The notes beneath the pieces were generated by a model. That model ran no database searches. It saw nothing but the letters and a program-made list of their open reading frames with translations, and was not told where the DNA came from. The position numbers and the translations under genes are program-made. Of a stretch of DNA of 64,000 nucleotides, positions 4,775-55,200 are shown piece after piece. The DNA lies in contig JAQXIM010000130.1 of the NCBI GenBank assembly GCA_029007785.1, positions 1 to 64,000 on the forward strand, given 5' to 3'. Each line of letters opens with the position of its first letter. Positions within the stretch are counted from its first letter, which is position 1. This DNA is from Clostridiales bacterium. GTDB lineage: Bacteria > Bacillota > Clostridia > Lachnospirales > Lachnospiraceae.

Positions 4775-5020
4775 ATGGTGCACAGAAAACATTTTGAAGT
4801 ATGCTATTATTTTGGCAAGTCCTTGATGCATTATTGTGTCGAAGTCGGGAACAGAAAGTGTTTTCGACATGGAGGAAAGTCTTCTTTTACAAGGGCTTTT
4901 CGGGAAGTGGAAGGCATCACTCCCAATCAGTATCGAAAAAGTACGATGGAGATTCGTATCAGAAATACTGGTACAGAGATTCCGCAGATGGAAAACAAGG
5001 AGGGTCCATATGAGAATTGA
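4775..5020 (+). pseudogene. C-terminal remnant of an AraC-type regulator
   Basis: 81 codons open from ATG 4775. The stretch at about residues 36-56, SSFTRAFREVEGITPNQYRKS, is the signature of the second helix-turn-helix of AraC/XylS regulators (S-x-F-x-R-x-F-K-x-x-x-G-x-T-P-x-x-Y-R). The approximately 200 residues that should precede it are absent, and the first helix-turn-helix is not recognisable upstream (4567-4774 is AT-rich non-coding). The frame ends TGA at 5018-5020, overlapping the next gene's start by 11 nt. Most likely a decayed regulator of the operon that follows; a short expressed DNA-binding peptide cannot be excluded. Confidence 0.65.
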
Positions 5021-46322: not shown

Positions 46323-47612
46323 TCACAGCTGGAAACCTGAGTCCACCAATTTCTGTAAAGACATCAAAATTCCATATTTAGCATGATACCAGGTAATTCC
46401 CCCCTGAAAATATACGGTATAGGGAGGTCTTAATGGACCGTCTGCACTCAATTCAATGGAAGCACCCTGAATAAAAGCTCCAGCAGCCATGATGACATCG
46501 GAATCATAGCCAGGCATTGCCCAGGGTTCCGGCGTAACAAAACTGTCGACCGGTGCGGCAGCCTGAATGCCCTGACAGAATGCTTTCAACCCTTCTGCTG
46601 TCTTCATATCAATGGCCTGAATGATATCATAACGGGGAGCATCACCAGCCGGATGAACACGGAAGCCCAGACGTTCATAGAGTTTAGCGGCAAAGATGGC
46701 ACCTTTTTCAGCAGACGCAGTAACGGTAGGAGCCAGGAAGAATCCCTGATAGAAAGACGGATTGGTTCCCAGATTCGCGCCTACTTCACGACCAAGTCCC
46801 GGTGAAGTGAGGCGTCTTGCCACACGTTCAACACATTCTGCGGTTCCGCAGATATACCCGCCGGCAGGAGCCAGACCGCCTCCGGGATTTTTGATCAGAG
46901 ACCCTACAATCATATCAGCACCATAATCGGAAGGTTCTTTTGTTTCTACAAATTCACCGTAGCAGTTATCTACCATGCAGATAATATCCGGCTTGATCTG
47001 TTTCATAAATGCAATCAATTCTCCAATTTGTTTCGGAGACAGGGTCGGACGGGATGCATATCCCTTGGAACGCTGAATCGTTGCCATCCTGGTTTTTGGT
47101 TTGATGGCTTTTCGAATTCCTTCGTAATCGAAGCTGCCGTCGGGCAGGAGATCTACCTGAGAATAGGATACACCATACTCTTTCAGGGAACCTACGGAAT
47201 CCCTGATTCCAATGACTTCTTCCAGGGTATCGTAAGGCTTCCCTACCGGGGAAAGAAGTTCATCGCCGGGACGGAGATTACCGGAAAGAGCCAGGTGAAG
47301 AGCATGAGTTCCGCAGGTGATCTGGGAACGTACCAGAGCATCCTCCGTGTGGAAGGTATCGGCATAAACCCGTTCCAGAGTGTCACGGCCGCTGTCATTA
47401 TATCCATAACCGGTGGTAGCGGCAAAATGCATTTCACTCACCCGGTTCTTTCGCATGGCGGAAAGGACTTTCATCTGATTATACTCTGCAACTGCATCAA
47501 TCTTTGCGAATCGAGGTGAGAGCTCTTCCAATACTTCTTCTCCCAATTTCAATACCTCGGGAGAAATTCCGCAGTCTTTATACATTTGATTAATGGTTTC
47601 ATTAAGGTTCAT
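46323..47612 (-). CDS. PLP-dependent methionine gamma-lyase-like protein (YnbB / aluminium resistance type)
   Basis: 429 residues. Fold-type I PLP enzyme: SQITCGTHALHLALSGNLRP near 97, CMVDNCYGEFVE holding the PLP-binding Asp (about 213), and GSLIKNPGGG with the Schiff-base Lys (about 238). The family is annotated as methionine gamma-lyase or aluminium resistance protein, and in Bacillus as YnbB; true substrate unsettled. It sits beside miaA (hfq/glnR region in Bacillus), as usual. Start ATG 47612 behind AGGAGTAGTAAAA. Confidence 0.92.
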   Translation of the reverse strand: MNLNETINQMYKDCGISPEVLKLGEEVLEELSPRFAKIDAVAEYNQMKVLSAMRKNRVSEMHFAATTGYGYNDSGRDTLERVYADTFHTEDALVRSQITCGTHALHLALSGNLRPGDELLSPVGKPYDTLEEVIGIRDSVGSLKEYGVSYSQVDLLPDGSFDYEGIRKAIKPKTRMATIQRSKGYASRPTLSPKQIGELIAFMKQIKPDIICMVDNCYGEFVETKEPSDYGADMIVGSLIKNPGGGLAPAGGYICGTAECVERVARRLTSPGLGREVGANLGTNPSFYQGFFLAPTVTASAEKGAIFAAKLYERLGFRVHPAGDAPRYDIIQAIDMKTAEGLKAFCQGIQAAAPVDSFVTPEPWAMPGYDSDVIMAAGAFIQGASIELSADGPLRPPYTVYFQGGITWYHAKYGILMSLQKLVDSGFQL

Positions 47613-47631
47613 TTTTACTACTCCTAATCTA

Positions 47632-48591
47632 TTATGATAAATCGGCAGGACCGGCAGTCAATCCTTTTTCCCGACAAAGTTTTTCAATGTAATTCAGCAT
47701 TTCATCCATGGTGGGATAGTCTTCCCAGTTCAGCCATGTTACATCCTTTTCCCGGTGGAACCAGGTAAGCTGCCTTTTTGCAAAGTGGCGGGTATCCCGC
47801 TTGATTTTATAGATGGCTTCTTCCAGAGATATTTCACCGTCCAGATATTCCAGAATTTCTTTATAACCCAATCCCTGCATGGATACCATCTGACGGTGAT
47901 ATCCCATTTCCCGGAGATTGCGTACTTCTTCCAGCAAACCGTTTTGCATCATAATATCTACCCGAAGGTCGATACGACGATAGAGTTCATCTCGTCTGCG
48001 GTTCAGTACAAGATATAGAAAATCATAGGGGGAAGTTCGTTCTCTTTCGATTTTGTTATGAACGGAAATCTTCTCACCGGTAAAGTGTTAGTATTCCAGG
48101 GCCCGAATAACTCGTTTGATATTGTTGGCATGGATTTCCCCGGCAGATTCCGGATCGACAAGAGCCAACTCCCTGTGGAGGACTTCCGGTCCTTCTTCCT
48201 TCGCACGGATTTCCAGGGATTCCCGGTAATCAGGGTCTCCTGCTGTTTCGGTAAAGTCGATATCGCGCAGCAGGGCCTGGACATAAAAACCCGTACCTCC
48301 TGCTACAATGGGAATCTTTCCATGGGACCAGATTTGCTGAATAGCATTTTTTGCAGCCCGCTGAAACTCCACAACATGAAATTCTTCCGAAGGATCGTAG
48401 CAGTCAATCAGGTAATGGGGAACGCCCTGCTGCTCTTCCTTTGTGACTTTGGCTGAACCGATATTCATATACCGATAAACCTGCATGGAGTCGGCACTGA
48501 TGATTTCTCCTCCGATTCTTTTTGCAAGCAATACAGATAATTCTGTTTTTCCCACAGCAGTGGGACCGGCCAAAACAATGAGTGGTTTCAT
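47632..48591 (-). pseudogene. miaA: tRNA dimethylallyltransferase MiaA, interrupted by an in-frame stop
   Basis: The frame from ATG 48591 (behind CAGGAGGTATCC) encodes a complete MiaA of 319 codons except that codon 168 is TAA (48088-48090). Before it: the P-loop GPTAVGKTELS, ISADSMQVYR and IVAGGTGFYVQALL, ending NNIKRVIRALEY. After it, in the same frame: the HFTGEKIS segment, FLYLVLNRRRDELY, GLGYKEILEYLDG and RDTRHFAKRQLTWFH. One base change from TAT or TAC explains it. MiaA adds isopentenyl to A37 of tRNAs reading UNN codons. The N-terminal 167 residues lack the tRNA-binding part, so function should be lost unless the stop is read through or is a sequencing error. Confidence 0.88.
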
Positions 48592-48603
48592 GGATACCTC
48601 CTG

Positions 48604-50790
48604 TCAGGAAACAACACGTTTGAATTTTTTCTCCAGTTCATATTGGGTCATGGTTATAATGGTGGGACGTCCGTGGGGACACATATAGGGATTCTCCAAT
48701 TCAAGAAGAGAATCCAGAAGAGCCCAGGCCTCTTCTCGGGAAAGGCGATGATTCCCTTTTACAGCAGCCTTACATGACATGAGTGCTATTTTTTCTTCGA
48801 TCAATGTCATTTGGGTATGAGCAGAATCATCGGCCAGAGTGTCGATGCATTCAATCAGCAAATCCTGTCGGGCAATATTGAACAAGTTGGAAGGAACTCC
48901 GTGAACTGCATACTCTTTTCCGCCGAAGGGTTCCAACTGGAATCCAAGATGCTCCAGATTTTCACGATACTCTTCTACCACTTGAATCTCCCGATCACTC
49001 AGTGTCAGAATGATCGGAGGCTGTACCTGTTGAGAGAGCAATTCCCGATTTTTCATATCCTTCATCGTCTTTTCGAAAAGGACTTTTTCATGGGCGGCAT
49101 GCTGATCCATAATCATCAGCTGATCGCGATATTGAATCAGCCAGTATGTATCAAAGAGCTGACCGATAAGATGATATTCATCTCTGGCCTGGGAGGACAG
49201 CAGCTTTTCTTCAAACAGATTCATCTGCTGAGGATTTTCTATTTCCATTGCTGTTTCCTTTTCCCGAAAGGAAGGGGTTTCCTGAAACGTATCTTCTTTT
49301 TTATCGGGCTTATCCTTTCCCATAATGGAAATCACGGGATCGAGTAAGGCGGATTCTGTTTTATCTGCAGACACTCGTTTTTCCTTGGAAACGATGGAAT
49401 CTTCGCTGGAAACGAAGGAATTTTCCTTTTCCTTGAAGTCAGGTTTCGCTGTGAATTCGGCGGCTTTCAGCCGTTCCTGAGATTCTTCCATAGATGGACG
49501 CGTTTCATTAGAAACGGAAGAATTCCATGAGGACGATCCGGTAAGATTCTTCTGCATGAGTTCAATGGTGGAAGGTTCATACTTCACTGTTTCCCGCAAA
49601 GCAGATAAATGACGCCGTCTCGTTTCAAAAGGTTCCGGTCCCCTTTCCGATTTGTTCTGGCTTTTCTGGAATGACTGGTTGCTTATGCTTACCTGATTCG
49701 AATCCTTCCGTGTGTTTTCACGTTTATTCTCCTGTTTTTCCCTGGATAAAATGTTTCCGTTCAATGAATCATCATCAGAAAAACTGTTGGAAGGAATCAG
49801 TTCTTTTCCGGTTAATTCACTGCGTATGCCCTTCCATACCGTTTCATAAACCTCTTCTTCATTTCGGAAACGAAGTTCCATCTTGGTGGGATGTACATTC
49901 ACATCCAGAAAAGAAGAAGGAATAGTCATATGAAGCACGGCGAAGGGATACTTGTGCTGCATAACAAATCCGTGATAGGCATTTTCAATGGCTTTGGTAA
50001 TCATTGCGCTTTTTACATAGCGGCCATTGATGAAATAGTTTTCGTAGGTTCTGTTTCCTCTGGATACTTCCGGTTTGCAGGCAAAGCCCTCCACTTTAAT
50101 GTTTTCTGATTCAATATGGATGGGCATAAGGGCACCGGCAATTTCCTTTCCGAAAATCGTGTAAATAATGTCTTTCAGGTGATGATTACCTGATGTCTGA
50201 AGGCGGGTCTGATTGCCGATGATCAGACGGAAGGAAATGTCCGGATGGGATAAAGCCATACGTTCCATGAGAGAACTGATATAGGAACCTTCCGTGGAAG
50301 CCGATTTCAGAAATTTCCGTCTTGCCGGTGTGTTAAAGAAAAGGTTGCGTACTAAAAAGGTGGTACCATCCGGAGCACCGATTTCCTCCTTGCCGAGTTC
50401 CTGTCCGCCTTCTATCCGATAGCGAACACCGGTCAGATTCTCCTTTGTCTTCGTGATGACTTCTACCTGAGCCACGGATGCAATACTGGAAAGAGCTTCT
50501 CCGCGGAATCCCAGAGAAGAAACCGTCAGGAGATCTTCTGCACTTTTAATTTTACTGGTGGCATGCTGAAGGAAGGCAAGCGGAATGTCTTCCGGGGTGA
50601 TGCCGCTTCCATTATCGGTTACACGAATCAGCGTGGTGCCGCCGTCACGGATTTCCACCGTAATAGCTGTAGCACCGGCATCCATGGCATTTTCCACCAG
50701 TTCTTTTACAACGGAAGAAGGACGTTCAATTACCTCACCGGCGGCAATTTGATTAATGGTATTTTGATCTAAAACATTAATTGACGACAT
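48604..50790 (-). CDS. mutL: DNA mismatch repair protein MutL (endonuclease type)
   Basis: 728 residues. GHKL ATPase N-domain (IAAGEVIERPSSVVKELVENAMDAG region, DNGSGI, GFRGEALSSI), then a long charged linker (about 345-530). The C-terminal dimer domain has the endonuclease motif DQHAAHEKVLFE and the CPHGRP zinc-site motif. Nicks DNA after MutS recognises a mismatch, the mode used in bacteria without MutH. Start ATG 50790 behind AAAAGGAGTACCT; mutS lies 22 nt upstream. Confidence 0.96.
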   Translation of the reverse strand: MSSINVLDQNTINQIAAGEVIERPSSVVKELVENAMDAGATAITVEIRDGGTTLIRVTDNGSGITPEDIPLAFLQHATSKIKSAEDLLTVSSLGFRGEALSSIASVAQVEVITKTKENLTGVRYRIEGGQELGKEEIGAPDGTTFLVRNLFFNTPARRKFLKSASTEGSYISSLMERMALSHPDISFRLIIGNQTRLQTSGNHHLKDIIYTIFGKEIAGALMPIHIESENIKVEGFACKPEVSRGNRTYENYFINGRYVKSAMITKAIENAYHGFVMQHKYPFAVLHMTIPSSFLDVNVHPTKMELRFRNEEEVYETVWKGIRSELTGKELIPSNSFSDDDSLNGNILSREKQENKRENTRKDSNQVSISNQSFQKSQNKSERGPEPFETRRRHLSALRETVKYEPSTIELMQKNLTGSSSWNSSVSNETRPSMEESQERLKAAEFTAKPDFKEKENSFVSSEDSIVSKEKRVSADKTESALLDPVISIMGKDKPDKKEDTFQETPSFREKETAMEIENPQQMNLFEEKLLSSQARDEYHLIGQLFDTYWLIQYRDQLMIMDQHAAHEKVLFEKTMKDMKNRELLSQQVQPPIILTLSDREIQVVEEYRENLEHLGFQLEPFGGKEYAVHGVPSNLFNIARQDLLIECIDTLADDSAHTQMTLIEEKIALMSCKAAVKGNHRLSREEAWALLDSLLELENPYMCPHGRPTIITMTQYELEKKFKRVVS

Positions 50791-50811: not shown

Positions 50812-53493
50812 TTAACTCTGCTGCCATCGATTATTGATTTTATTCTGAAGGCGATAAAGGGTATTGAGAGCATCGATGGGAGTCATGTTTCCCAATTCCA
50901 GTTCTTTCAGTTCATCCAGAATATCCTGATCGCTTACTGTGTCAAATAAACTCATCTGGTGAAGATCCACATCATCCAGTTTTTTCACTGCTTTGGAGGA
51001 TGTGGAAGTACCTGAGGCAGCAATTTCTCTGGCACGAAGTGTGATATCTGCATGAGACAACTCGGCTACCAATTCTTTTGCCCGGTCAATGACCGGATCC
51101 GGAACACCAGCCAGCTTTGCTACCTGAATGCCGTAACTCTTATCGGCACCGCCTTTGACAATTTTTCGCAGAAAGACAATGGAATCTCCCTGTTCCTTTA
51201 CGGCGATACAGTAGTTATTGACACCAGCCAGACTGCCCTCCAGTTCAGTTAATTCATGGTAATGGGTGGCAAACAGGGTTTTCGCACCCAGAAGCCTGGT
51301 ATTGCTGATATATTCGAGAACAGCCCAGGCAATAGAGAGTCCGTCAAAGGTACTGGTACCTCGTCCGATTTCATCAAGAATCAAAAGACTGTTCCTGGTG
51401 GCATTGCGGAGAATATTGGCTACTTCTGTCATCTCTACCAGAAAGGTACTTTGTCCCGAAGCCAGATCATCGGAAGCACCGACACGGGTAAAAATACGGT
51501 CACAGATGCCGATATTGGCTGAATTTGCAGGAACAAAAGAACCGATCTGAGCCATCAGAACAATCAGTGCGGTCTGGCGCATATAGGTGGATTTTCCCGC
51601 CATATTTGGTCCTGTAATGATGGAGATCCGATGGGTGTTGTTATCCAGATAGGTATCATTGGCGATGAACAAATCATCGGTCATCATTTTTTCAACCACC
51701 GGATGGCGTCCTTCCCGGATATCGATGATTCCTTTCTCATTGATGGATGGACGGACATATCGGTTTTTGTCTGCCGCAAAGGCGAGAGAGGCCAGAACAT
51801 CAATCTGAGCAATCGCCTTTGCACTGGTCTGAACACGAATCACCTGTTCATCAATTCCGTCCCGAAGTTCACAGAACAGCTGATACTCCAGATTAAAGAG
51901 CTTGTCTTCCGCACCAAGAATAACATCTTCCAGTTCTTTCAGACGAGGCGTTGTAAAACGCTCTGCATTGGTGAGAGTCTGCTTTCGTATGTAATCTTCG
52001 GGTACGAGATTTAAAAAAGAATTGGTGACTTCCAGATAATATCCGAAGACTTTATTGAATTTGATCCGAAGATTTTTGATTCCCGTTCTTTCCCGTTCCG
52101 ACTGTTCCAAATCAGCCAGCCACTGTTTTCCTTCGGTTTTTGCTTTCCGAAGACGGTCCGCTTCTTCGGAATAGCCTTCCTTAATGATTCCGCCTTCTTT
52201 TACGGTAATAGGCGGATCCTCTTCAATGGCTCTTTCAATCCAATCGGCAAGATCTTCAAGGCTATCCAGCTGATCGTTTAGTTCACATAAGAGCTCACTG
52301 GAAAAATCCTTCAGAAGATGTTTAATGGGAGGAATCATTTGAAGTGAGGTTTTAAAAGCAACCAGATCTCTGGGATTTGCCGTATGGTAGGAAATCCGGC
52401 CAATTAATCGCTCCAAATCATAAATCGGGTTCAGATATTCTCTTAATTCATCTCTTGTCATCAAATGATGATTCAGTTCCTCCACCGCATTCTGACGATT
52501 CACAATCTCCTGACGATCAATCAAAGGCTGTTCCAGAAAACTGCGAAGCATTCGGGCTCCCATGGCTGTCTTTGTTCGATCCAGAACCCAAAGAAGCGTG
52601 CCCGTTTTTCGCTTTTCCCGCAGAGTTTCTGTTAATTCCAGATTTCGGCGGGTTGAGGTATCCAGTACCATGTATTTTCCCGTCTGGTAAGGCTGGATAT
52701 GGGTAAGATGAGACAGGGTATTTTTCTGAGTATCATAAAGATATCCCATTAAAGCTCCGGCAGCCACGATTCCCGTGGGGTAGTCCTGAAGGCCCAGACC
52801 ACCCAGAGAATGAATGTGAAAATGTTCCTTTAGAATTCGTTCGCAGTTTTCATCACTGAAATAACGGTTTTCCAGAGAGGACATGGCAATGCCCAGACGA
52901 TTCCGAAGATCGGATAAATCTACGCTGCTCATACAGAAGGCATCGTTGCTGATAATTTCCGCCGGTGAAAACTTATGAATTTCGTCCATGAGAACTCTGG
53001 GTGTATCCACCTCTGTTACTAAGAAGTCACCGGTGGATACGTCTGTGACGGCCAGACCAAAGGTTTTATCCAGATATACGATGCACATCAGATAATTATT
53101 TTTTGTTTCATCCAATGCCTGGGTACAAAGATTGGTGCCGGGAGTAACCACACGAACCACTTCACGTTTTACCAAACCTTTGGCAAATTTGGGATCTTCC
53201 ATTTGTTCAGCAATGGCAACCTTGTATCCTTTTTCAACCAGTCGGCTTAAATAAACTTCGGCGGCATGATGGGGGATTCCGCACATGGGTGCCCGTTCCT
53301 CCAAACCGCAGTCCTTACCGGTCAGGGTGATTTCCAATTCCCGCGAAGCCGTGATGGCATCATCAAAAAACATTTCATAAAAATCTCCCAGTCGATAGAA
53401 CAAAATACAATCCGGGTATTCCTTTTTTGTCTCCAGATAATGCTGCATCATGGGAGACAGAGATTTCAGGTTCGTGTCTTTTAAGGATTTCAT
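50812..53493 (-). CDS. mutS: DNA mismatch repair protein MutS
   Basis: 893 residues from ATG 53493. Mismatch-recognition domain with the F-Y-E motif (RLGDFYEMFFDDA, about 38), connector, lever and clamp domains, then the ABC ATPase: Walker A GPNMAGKST (about 622), DEIGRGTSTFDG and ATHYHEL. The C-terminal part ends with a helix-turn-helix dimer region. Recognises mispairs and calls MutL, which is encoded next. The element at 53523-53591 lies in its leader, 30 nt before the start; an upstream frame extension into that element was rejected. Confidence 0.96.
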   Translation of the reverse strand: MKSLKDTNLKSLSPMMQHYLETKKEYPDCILFYRLGDFYEMFFDDAITASRELEITLTGKDCGLEERAPMCGIPHHAAEVYLSRLVEKGYKVAIAEQMEDPKFAKGLVKREVVRVVTPGTNLCTQALDETKNNYLMCIVYLDKTFGLAVTDVSTGDFLVTEVDTPRVLMDEIHKFSPAEIISNDAFCMSSVDLSDLRNRLGIAMSSLENRYFSDENCERILKEHFHIHSLGGLGLQDYPTGIVAAGALMGYLYDTQKNTLSHLTHIQPYQTGKYMVLDTSTRRNLELTETLREKRKTGTLLWVLDRTKTAMGARMLRSFLEQPLIDRQEIVNRQNAVEELNHHLMTRDELREYLNPIYDLERLIGRISYHTANPRDLVAFKTSLQMIPPIKHLLKDFSSELLCELNDQLDSLEDLADWIERAIEEDPPITVKEGGIIKEGYSEEADRLRKAKTEGKQWLADLEQSERERTGIKNLRIKFNKVFGYYLEVTNSFLNLVPEDYIRKQTLTNAERFTTPRLKELEDVILGAEDKLFNLEYQLFCELRDGIDEQVIRVQTSAKAIAQIDVLASLAFAADKNRYVRPSINEKGIIDIREGRHPVVEKMMTDDLFIANDTYLDNNTHRISIITGPNMAGKSTYMRQTALIVLMAQIGSFVPANSANIGICDRIFTRVGASDDLASGQSTFLVEMTEVANILRNATRNSLLILDEIGRGTSTFDGLSIAWAVLEYISNTRLLGAKTLFATHYHELTELEGSLAGVNNYCIAVKEQGDSIVFLRKIVKGGADKSYGIQVAKLAGVPDPVIDRAKELVAELSHADITLRAREIAASGTSTSSKAVKKLDDVDLHQMSLFDTVSDQDILDELKELELGNMTPIDALNTLYRLQNKINNRWQQS

Positions 53494-53522
53494 GTGGCAT
53501 TTACTCTTTCTGTAAAAAATGA

Positions 53523-53591
53523 ATGAGCGAAGGGACAAATGGACATAAGAGACATGTTTTTGACGCCAGGCTCATTTGTCAGGTGACTCAT
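53523..53591 (-). repeat. Dispersed palindromic element, copy C, in the mutS leader
   Basis: Left arm ATGAGCGAAGGGACAAATGG (53523-53542), right arm GCTCATTTGTCAGGTGACTC (53570-53589); imperfect inverted repeats 69 bp end to end. It ends 30 nt from the mutS start codon, in the same orientation to mutS as copy B is to lexA. Confidence 0.78.
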
Positions 53592-53733: not shown

Positions 53734-55200
53734 TTATTCTTCTGCCCGTACTCCCATATAATAGAATCCGTGGGATTCCGTCAGTTTAACCGGCACGATT
53801 TCTCCGATGAGAGAAGCATCTCCGGGAAAATGTACCATGATATTATTGCTGAGCCGGCCGGTCACCATGGAGTCATCGTGATCATCCATTTCTTCTACCA
53901 GGGCTTTTTGCACGGTACCAAGATCACGGCTGCATACCTGAGAAGCGATCTGCTGAACTTCCTTCAGCAGACGGTCAAATCGAGGTTTTACCACTTCCGG
54001 AGGAACCTGATTTTCCATAGCCGCTGCCGGAGTTCCCGTTCTTTTGGAATAAATAAAGGTAAAGGCACTGTCATAGCGAACGCGGCGAACTACATCCATG
54101 GTATCTTCGAAATCCTCTTCCGTCTCACCGGGAAAACCTACAATGATATCCGTGGTAAGGGAAATATCAGGAATTGCCTGACGGATTCGGTCTACCAGAG
54201 CCAGATACTGCTCTTTGTCATATTTCCGATTCATGATTTTCAGAATACGGCTGCTTCCGGATTGGAGCGGAAGATGGAGGTGACGGCAGATTTTTTTCGA
54301 TTCGGCCATTACCTGAATCAGTTCATCAGAAAGATCCTTGGGATGGGAAGTCATAAAACGAATTCTTTCCAATCCGTCAATCTCTTCGATCTGACGCAGC
54401 AGCTGAGCAAAGGTAATCCGGGGATCCAGATTTTTACCGTAGGAGTTAACGTTTTGCCCCAGAAGCATGACTTCTTTTACGCCATCCTGAACCATCTGAC
54501 GGATTTCCTGAACGATATCTTCCGGTTTTCTGCTGCGTTCCCGTCCCCGAACATAGGGAACGATACAGTAAGAACAAAAATTATTGCAGCCAAACATGAT
54601 ATTGACTCCGGACTTAAAAGGGTATTTTCGATCGGAAGGAAGCTCTTCTACGATCTTTTCCGTATCCGGCCAGATATCGACTACCATTTTCTGGCTGACT
54701 TTTCTCTGGAAAATCAATTCTGCCAGTTTGAAAATATTGTGGGTTCCGAAAATAATATCAACAAAACGGTAGGAGGAAGTGATTTTCTCTACCACCTGGG
54801 GTTCCTGCATCATGCAGCCGCAGAGAGCAATTACCATGTGGGGATTTTTCCGTTTCAGACTGTTGAGATGCCCCAGTCTTCCGTAAACACGAAGATTTGC
54901 GTTTTCTCTTACGGTGCATGTATTGTAAAGTACAAAATCGGCTTCTTCCGAATCTGTTTCATGATAACCTATTTCATTAAGAATTCCCAAAAGCTTTTCC
55001 GAATCTCTGGCATTCATCTGACAACCGATACACACAGACTTACAGGTGAGAGGACGGCCAAGCATCTCTTCCTCCTGCTTGATAATTTCCCGCATCTTCT
55101 TAATAAAATAATACTGTCTGTTGGGTTCTTCTTCCGGCGGGATCTTTGTAATATCAATGTTTTCCAGTGTTTCTTCAAATTCTTTACTCAATGGTTTCAT
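53734..55200 (-). CDS. miaB: tRNA-2-methylthio-N6-dimethylallyladenosine synthase MiaB
   Basis: 488 residues. N-terminal UPF0004 domain with its cluster cysteines (CIGCQMNARDSE, TCTVRENA, CGCMMQEP), the radical SAM domain (NNFCSYCIVPYVRGRERSR, C-x3-C-x2-C near 209) and a C-terminal TRAM domain. Adds the methylthio group to i6A37 of tRNA, so it needs the product of MiaA; miaA in this window carries a nonsense codon. Start ATG 55200 behind AAAGGAAAAAGAAT. Confidence 0.95.
   Translation of the reverse strand: MKPLSKEFEETLENIDITKIPPEEEPNRQYYFIKKMREIIKQEEEMLGRPLTCKSVCIGCQMNARDSEKLLGILNEIGYHETDSEEADFVLYNTCTVRENANLRVYGRLGHLNSLKRKNPHMVIALCGCMMQEPQVVEKITSSYRFVDIIFGTHNIFKLAELIFQRKVSQKMVVDIWPDTEKIVEELPSDRKYPFKSGVNIMFGCNNFCSYCIVPYVRGRERSRKPEDIVQEIRQMVQDGVKEVMLLGQNVNSYGKNLDPRITFAQLLRQIEEIDGLERIRFMTSHPKDLSDELIQVMAESKKICRHLHLPLQSGSSRILKIMNRKYDKEQYLALVDRIRQAIPDISLTTDIIVGFPGETEEDFEDTMDVVRRVRYDSAFTFIYSKRTGTPAAAMENQVPPEVVKPRFDRLLKEVQQIASQVCSRDLGTVQKALVEEMDDHDDSMVTGRLSNNIMVHFPGDASLIGEIVPVKLTESHGFYYMGVRAEE

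Follow-up and report, generated by a model that had tools for sequence, protein, structure and literature searches.

An in-frame stop codon in the only miaA gene of a Lachnospiraceae draft genome: recent null allele or consensus error

The only miaA gene of the Lachnospiraceae draft genome analysed here is interrupted by a single in-frame TAA codon. We lean towards the reading that this stop is real: a loss-of-function substitution of very recent origin in the strain's single miaA, or else the allele carried by the majority of a polymorphic population. All coordinates refer to the window, that is, the whole stretch of 64,000 nucleotides that was analysed, unless another contig is named. The miaA locus comprises the following features:

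47632–48591, minus strand: miaA (tRNA dimethylallyltransferase) frame with one interruption, 319 codons plus stop; Pfam PF01715 E = 1.8e-94 for the read-through frame; closest solved protein 2qgn, E = 3.5e-88
48088–48090, minus strand: in-frame TAA, codon 168 of miaA; relatives carry Y, F, H or N at this column
48088–48591, minus strand: upstream miaA piece of 167 codons; P-loop present, second half of the IPPT domain absent, AGGAGG before the ATG
47632–48087, minus strand: downstream half of miaA, conserved; no start codon for 45 codons, first ATG without a ribosome-binding site

Reading the minus-strand frame from 48591 to 47632 directly reveals exactly one internal stop, the TAA at codon 168. 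For the profile search only, the frame was read through this codon. The piece before the stop matched positions 1–130 of the Pfam IPPT profile and the piece after it positions 134–242; since these matches are contiguous, nothing is missing between the two halves. The read-through frame scored 316 bits, compared to 165 and 134 bits for the halves alone (curated cut-off 23.6). Judged as a member of MiaA (PF01715), the gene possesses an IPPT domain above the curated cut-off and lacks an uninterrupted frame. At the column of the stop, the 68 intact homologues carry tyrosine (41), phenylalanine (13), histidine (9) or asparagine (5), with no gaps.

The genes around miaA are intact. They are arranged in the order miaB, mutS, mutL, miaA and a methionine gamma-lyase-like gene, and the mutS-mutL-miaA order is the same at the miaA loci of relatives:

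53734–55200, minus strand: miaB, intact; TIGR01574 532 bits, no stop
50812–53538, minus strand: mutS, intact (profile search)
48604–50790, minus strand: mutL, intact (profile search)

This miaB encodes the one MiaB of the genome that lies above the curated cut-off.

The source assembly is a 2.35 Mb draft of 149 contigs (97.3% complete, 3.3% contaminated) with one copy of miaA, and a search across all 2.35 Mb found no second one. Among 61 genomes (our own and 60 relatives), 58 contain miaA, with two interruptions reported: the TAA described here and a TGA in the congener G005. The latter, an apparent frameshift/TGA, falls on a stretch of ten Ns (L143, G005:C7, about 4840–4920) and was rejected as a scaffolding artefact, and with it the idea of recurrent miaA breakage in the genus. 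A genuine stop at the codon-168 position was found in none of the 60 relatives. In a Lachnospiraceae sample, 193 of 200 genomes contained miaA, and among the matches listed only our own copy carries a stop. Among named organisms, Hominifimenecus microfluidus (Lachnospiraceae) comes closest, with 71% protein identity in MiaA; relatives do not exceed this value, and no strain of the same species was found among the named genomes. The miaA DNA of congeners reached at most 77% identity in any aligned piece. No relative was detected on viral contigs.

Some genomes of the family deviate from the common pattern. G149 and G033 lack miaA and possess a true MiaB; they were not accepted as genuine miaA-less genomes, as the miaB of G149 borders the end of a contig and the completeness of G033 is 60%, and the absence may be a gap. 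G134 (90% complete) possesses no miaA and no MiaB above the cut-off, which may mean that the ms2i6A pathway was lost as a whole or that the assembly has a gap.

We then used an alignment of 69 MiaA proteins to date the stop, defining a near-invariant column as one shared by at least 95% of the other members. Our MiaA breaks 1 of 43 such columns before the stop, through the conservative exchange I104V, and none of 33 after it, while the other members show on average 0.6 and 0.7 violations in the two parts. As far as the sequence tells, relaxed selection has left no sign on either side. With the conserved columns preserved before and after it, the stop is young and any loss very recent. Rough arithmetic suggests that no more than about 6% of codons have changed since the stop arose, equivalent to a neutral nucleotide divergence of some 3%, which would roughly fall within the lifetime of a species. 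The first-pass annotation had described a single TAA at 48088–48090 with an open frame on both sides, next to an intact miaB, and had taken the lack of other decay to mean either a very recent event or an error. Our frame reading and the alignment with 68 homologues agree with the first point, the 532-bit TIGR01574 match and the stop-free frame bear out the second, and the 76 near-invariant columns leave the same two options. A second intact copy, which that annotation had named as evidence against its view, was looked for in the assembly and is absent.

Is the base itself real? That a base error, or the choice of a minor variant in the consensus, produced the TAA while the miaA of the organism is intact is a realistic possibility, though the less probable one. 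It would require one substitution only, in a gene whose 76 near-invariant columns are without decay; the source is a draft assembly, split into 149 contigs and 3.3% contaminated; and miaA is found in 163 of 165 good-quality genomes of the family, as expected under selection. Total absence of decay, in particular, is expected equally from a consensus error and from a real null allele. However, the site contains neither a homopolymer nor a repeat, and the general error rate of the assembly looks low. This was judged by a scan that covered 446 kb of the genome, with the 102 kb contig in full, and looked for adjacent coding stretches in the same frame that are split by one stop. In this crude scan, whose reach covers stops and not frameshifts, the sole isolated nonsense codon upheld was that of miaA; the other candidates followed up were explained by frames that are weak or lie antisense, or by genes ending normally. 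Comparison with the proteins of G007 and Hominifimenecus revealed no other broken genes in the syntenic part, the remaining stop-containing matches being antisense or very small doubtful frames. Since no other isolated nonsense codon was upheld in the 446 kb, the assembly does not appear to be rich in errors. Even so, a low error rate always leaves room for a single error somewhere in a genome: at an error rate of 1e-5 per base, which is assumed and not measured, a genome of this size would be expected to contain about one spurious nonsense codon.

Null alleles created by nonsense codons occur commonly in dispensable genes. Because of this, and because the assembly shows few errors, we infer that a recent real null is somewhat likelier than a consensus error. 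This favoured reading is further supported by a single-copy miaA with one TAA while the other relatives searched are uninterrupted, by the 446 kb without another upheld nonsense codon, and by the dispensability of miaA in E. coli. Either outcome is ordinary, and nothing new is needed as an explanation.

Apart from these two readings, the stop might be bypassed. The conserved downstream half would also fit a TAA that is read through or recoded, yielding full-length MiaA at a lower level, but we consider this very improbable. TAA is the commonest stop in the sampled stretches of this genome (148 of 274 complete long frames, versus 76 TGA and 50 TAG), the anticodons of the tRNA genes found are ordinary and include no TTA (reading UAA), in a tRNA set that is incomplete in this draft, and no relative has a stop at the same place, hence no conserved recoding signal exists. 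Still more remote is the notion that leaky UAA readthrough tunes MiaA in a feedback loop, in which MiaA sets its own level through the UNN-reading tRNAs it modifies. Similarly, conservation of both halves would suit a split MiaA whose parts are made separately and assemble, but we give this hardly any weight: the normal start is an ATG preceded by a canonical AGGAGG ribosome-binding site, whereas internal restart was rejected, with no start for 45 codons past the stop and a first ATG that lies well inside the domain and has no such site. Neither tandem nor inverted repeats were found in or around miaA (47600–48620), as phase variation would need at a switch site. Taken together, stop usage, tRNAs, restart and repeat results make it unlikely that the stop is read through, that MiaA is a split protein or that the gene is phase-variable; the readthrough and phase-type options raised in the first-pass annotation found no support.

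With regard to the tRNA complement, several expected tRNAs are absent from the draft. The same tRNA-Val/tRNA-Met pair occurs near the ends of contigs C42 and C119 and inside C124 (L122, L123 and L124), and is probably a repeat where the assembly broke.

Should the favoured null allele be real, translation would start normally and halt after 167 residues. The truncated MiaA, whose transferase domain lacks its second half, would presumably be inactive, the tRNAs reading UNN codons would keep an unmodified A37, and MiaB would be left with nothing to methylthiolate. Candidate substrates are present: tRNAs for Tyr, Phe, Trp, three Ser and Leu-UAA carry A36-A37-A38. In tRNA-Cys(GCA) (L133, 291–362) we observed A36-A37-C38 instead, a difference that may lower its quality as a MiaA substrate. 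By the known pathway MiaB lacks its substrate without i6A37, so a real stop should leave the tRNAs devoid of i6A37 and consequently of ms2i6A37; the ms2i6A37 loss deduced in the first-pass annotation is correct under this condition only. We would then be looking at a natural strain with MiaB and without MiaA, of use at most as an example from the wild of a Lachnospiraceae bacterium that has lost i6A37. If the stop is an error, it cautions against inferring pathway loss from one draft genome.

Compared with the solved MiaA proteins 2qgn, 3d3q and 2zm5 (PF01715), our gene has in common the whole domain, the P-loop and a contiguous alignment, and differs from MiaA by the in-frame stop at codon 168. 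With young nonsense pseudogenes of bacterial genomes it shares a frame disrupted here and intact in relatives, a single stop and no further decay, and no feature sets it apart from them. The mutation in PMC3071312 was dismissed as a precedent, since it sits between miaA and hfq and is irrelevant here. In E. coli, laboratory mutants deleted for miaA are viable and show more frameshifting, that is, miaA is dispensable there (PMC9303304). The predicted loss of i6A37 and a MiaB without substrate are shared with these mutants, but they are deletions, whereas our case would be a natural single substitution, known from the sequence of one assembly.
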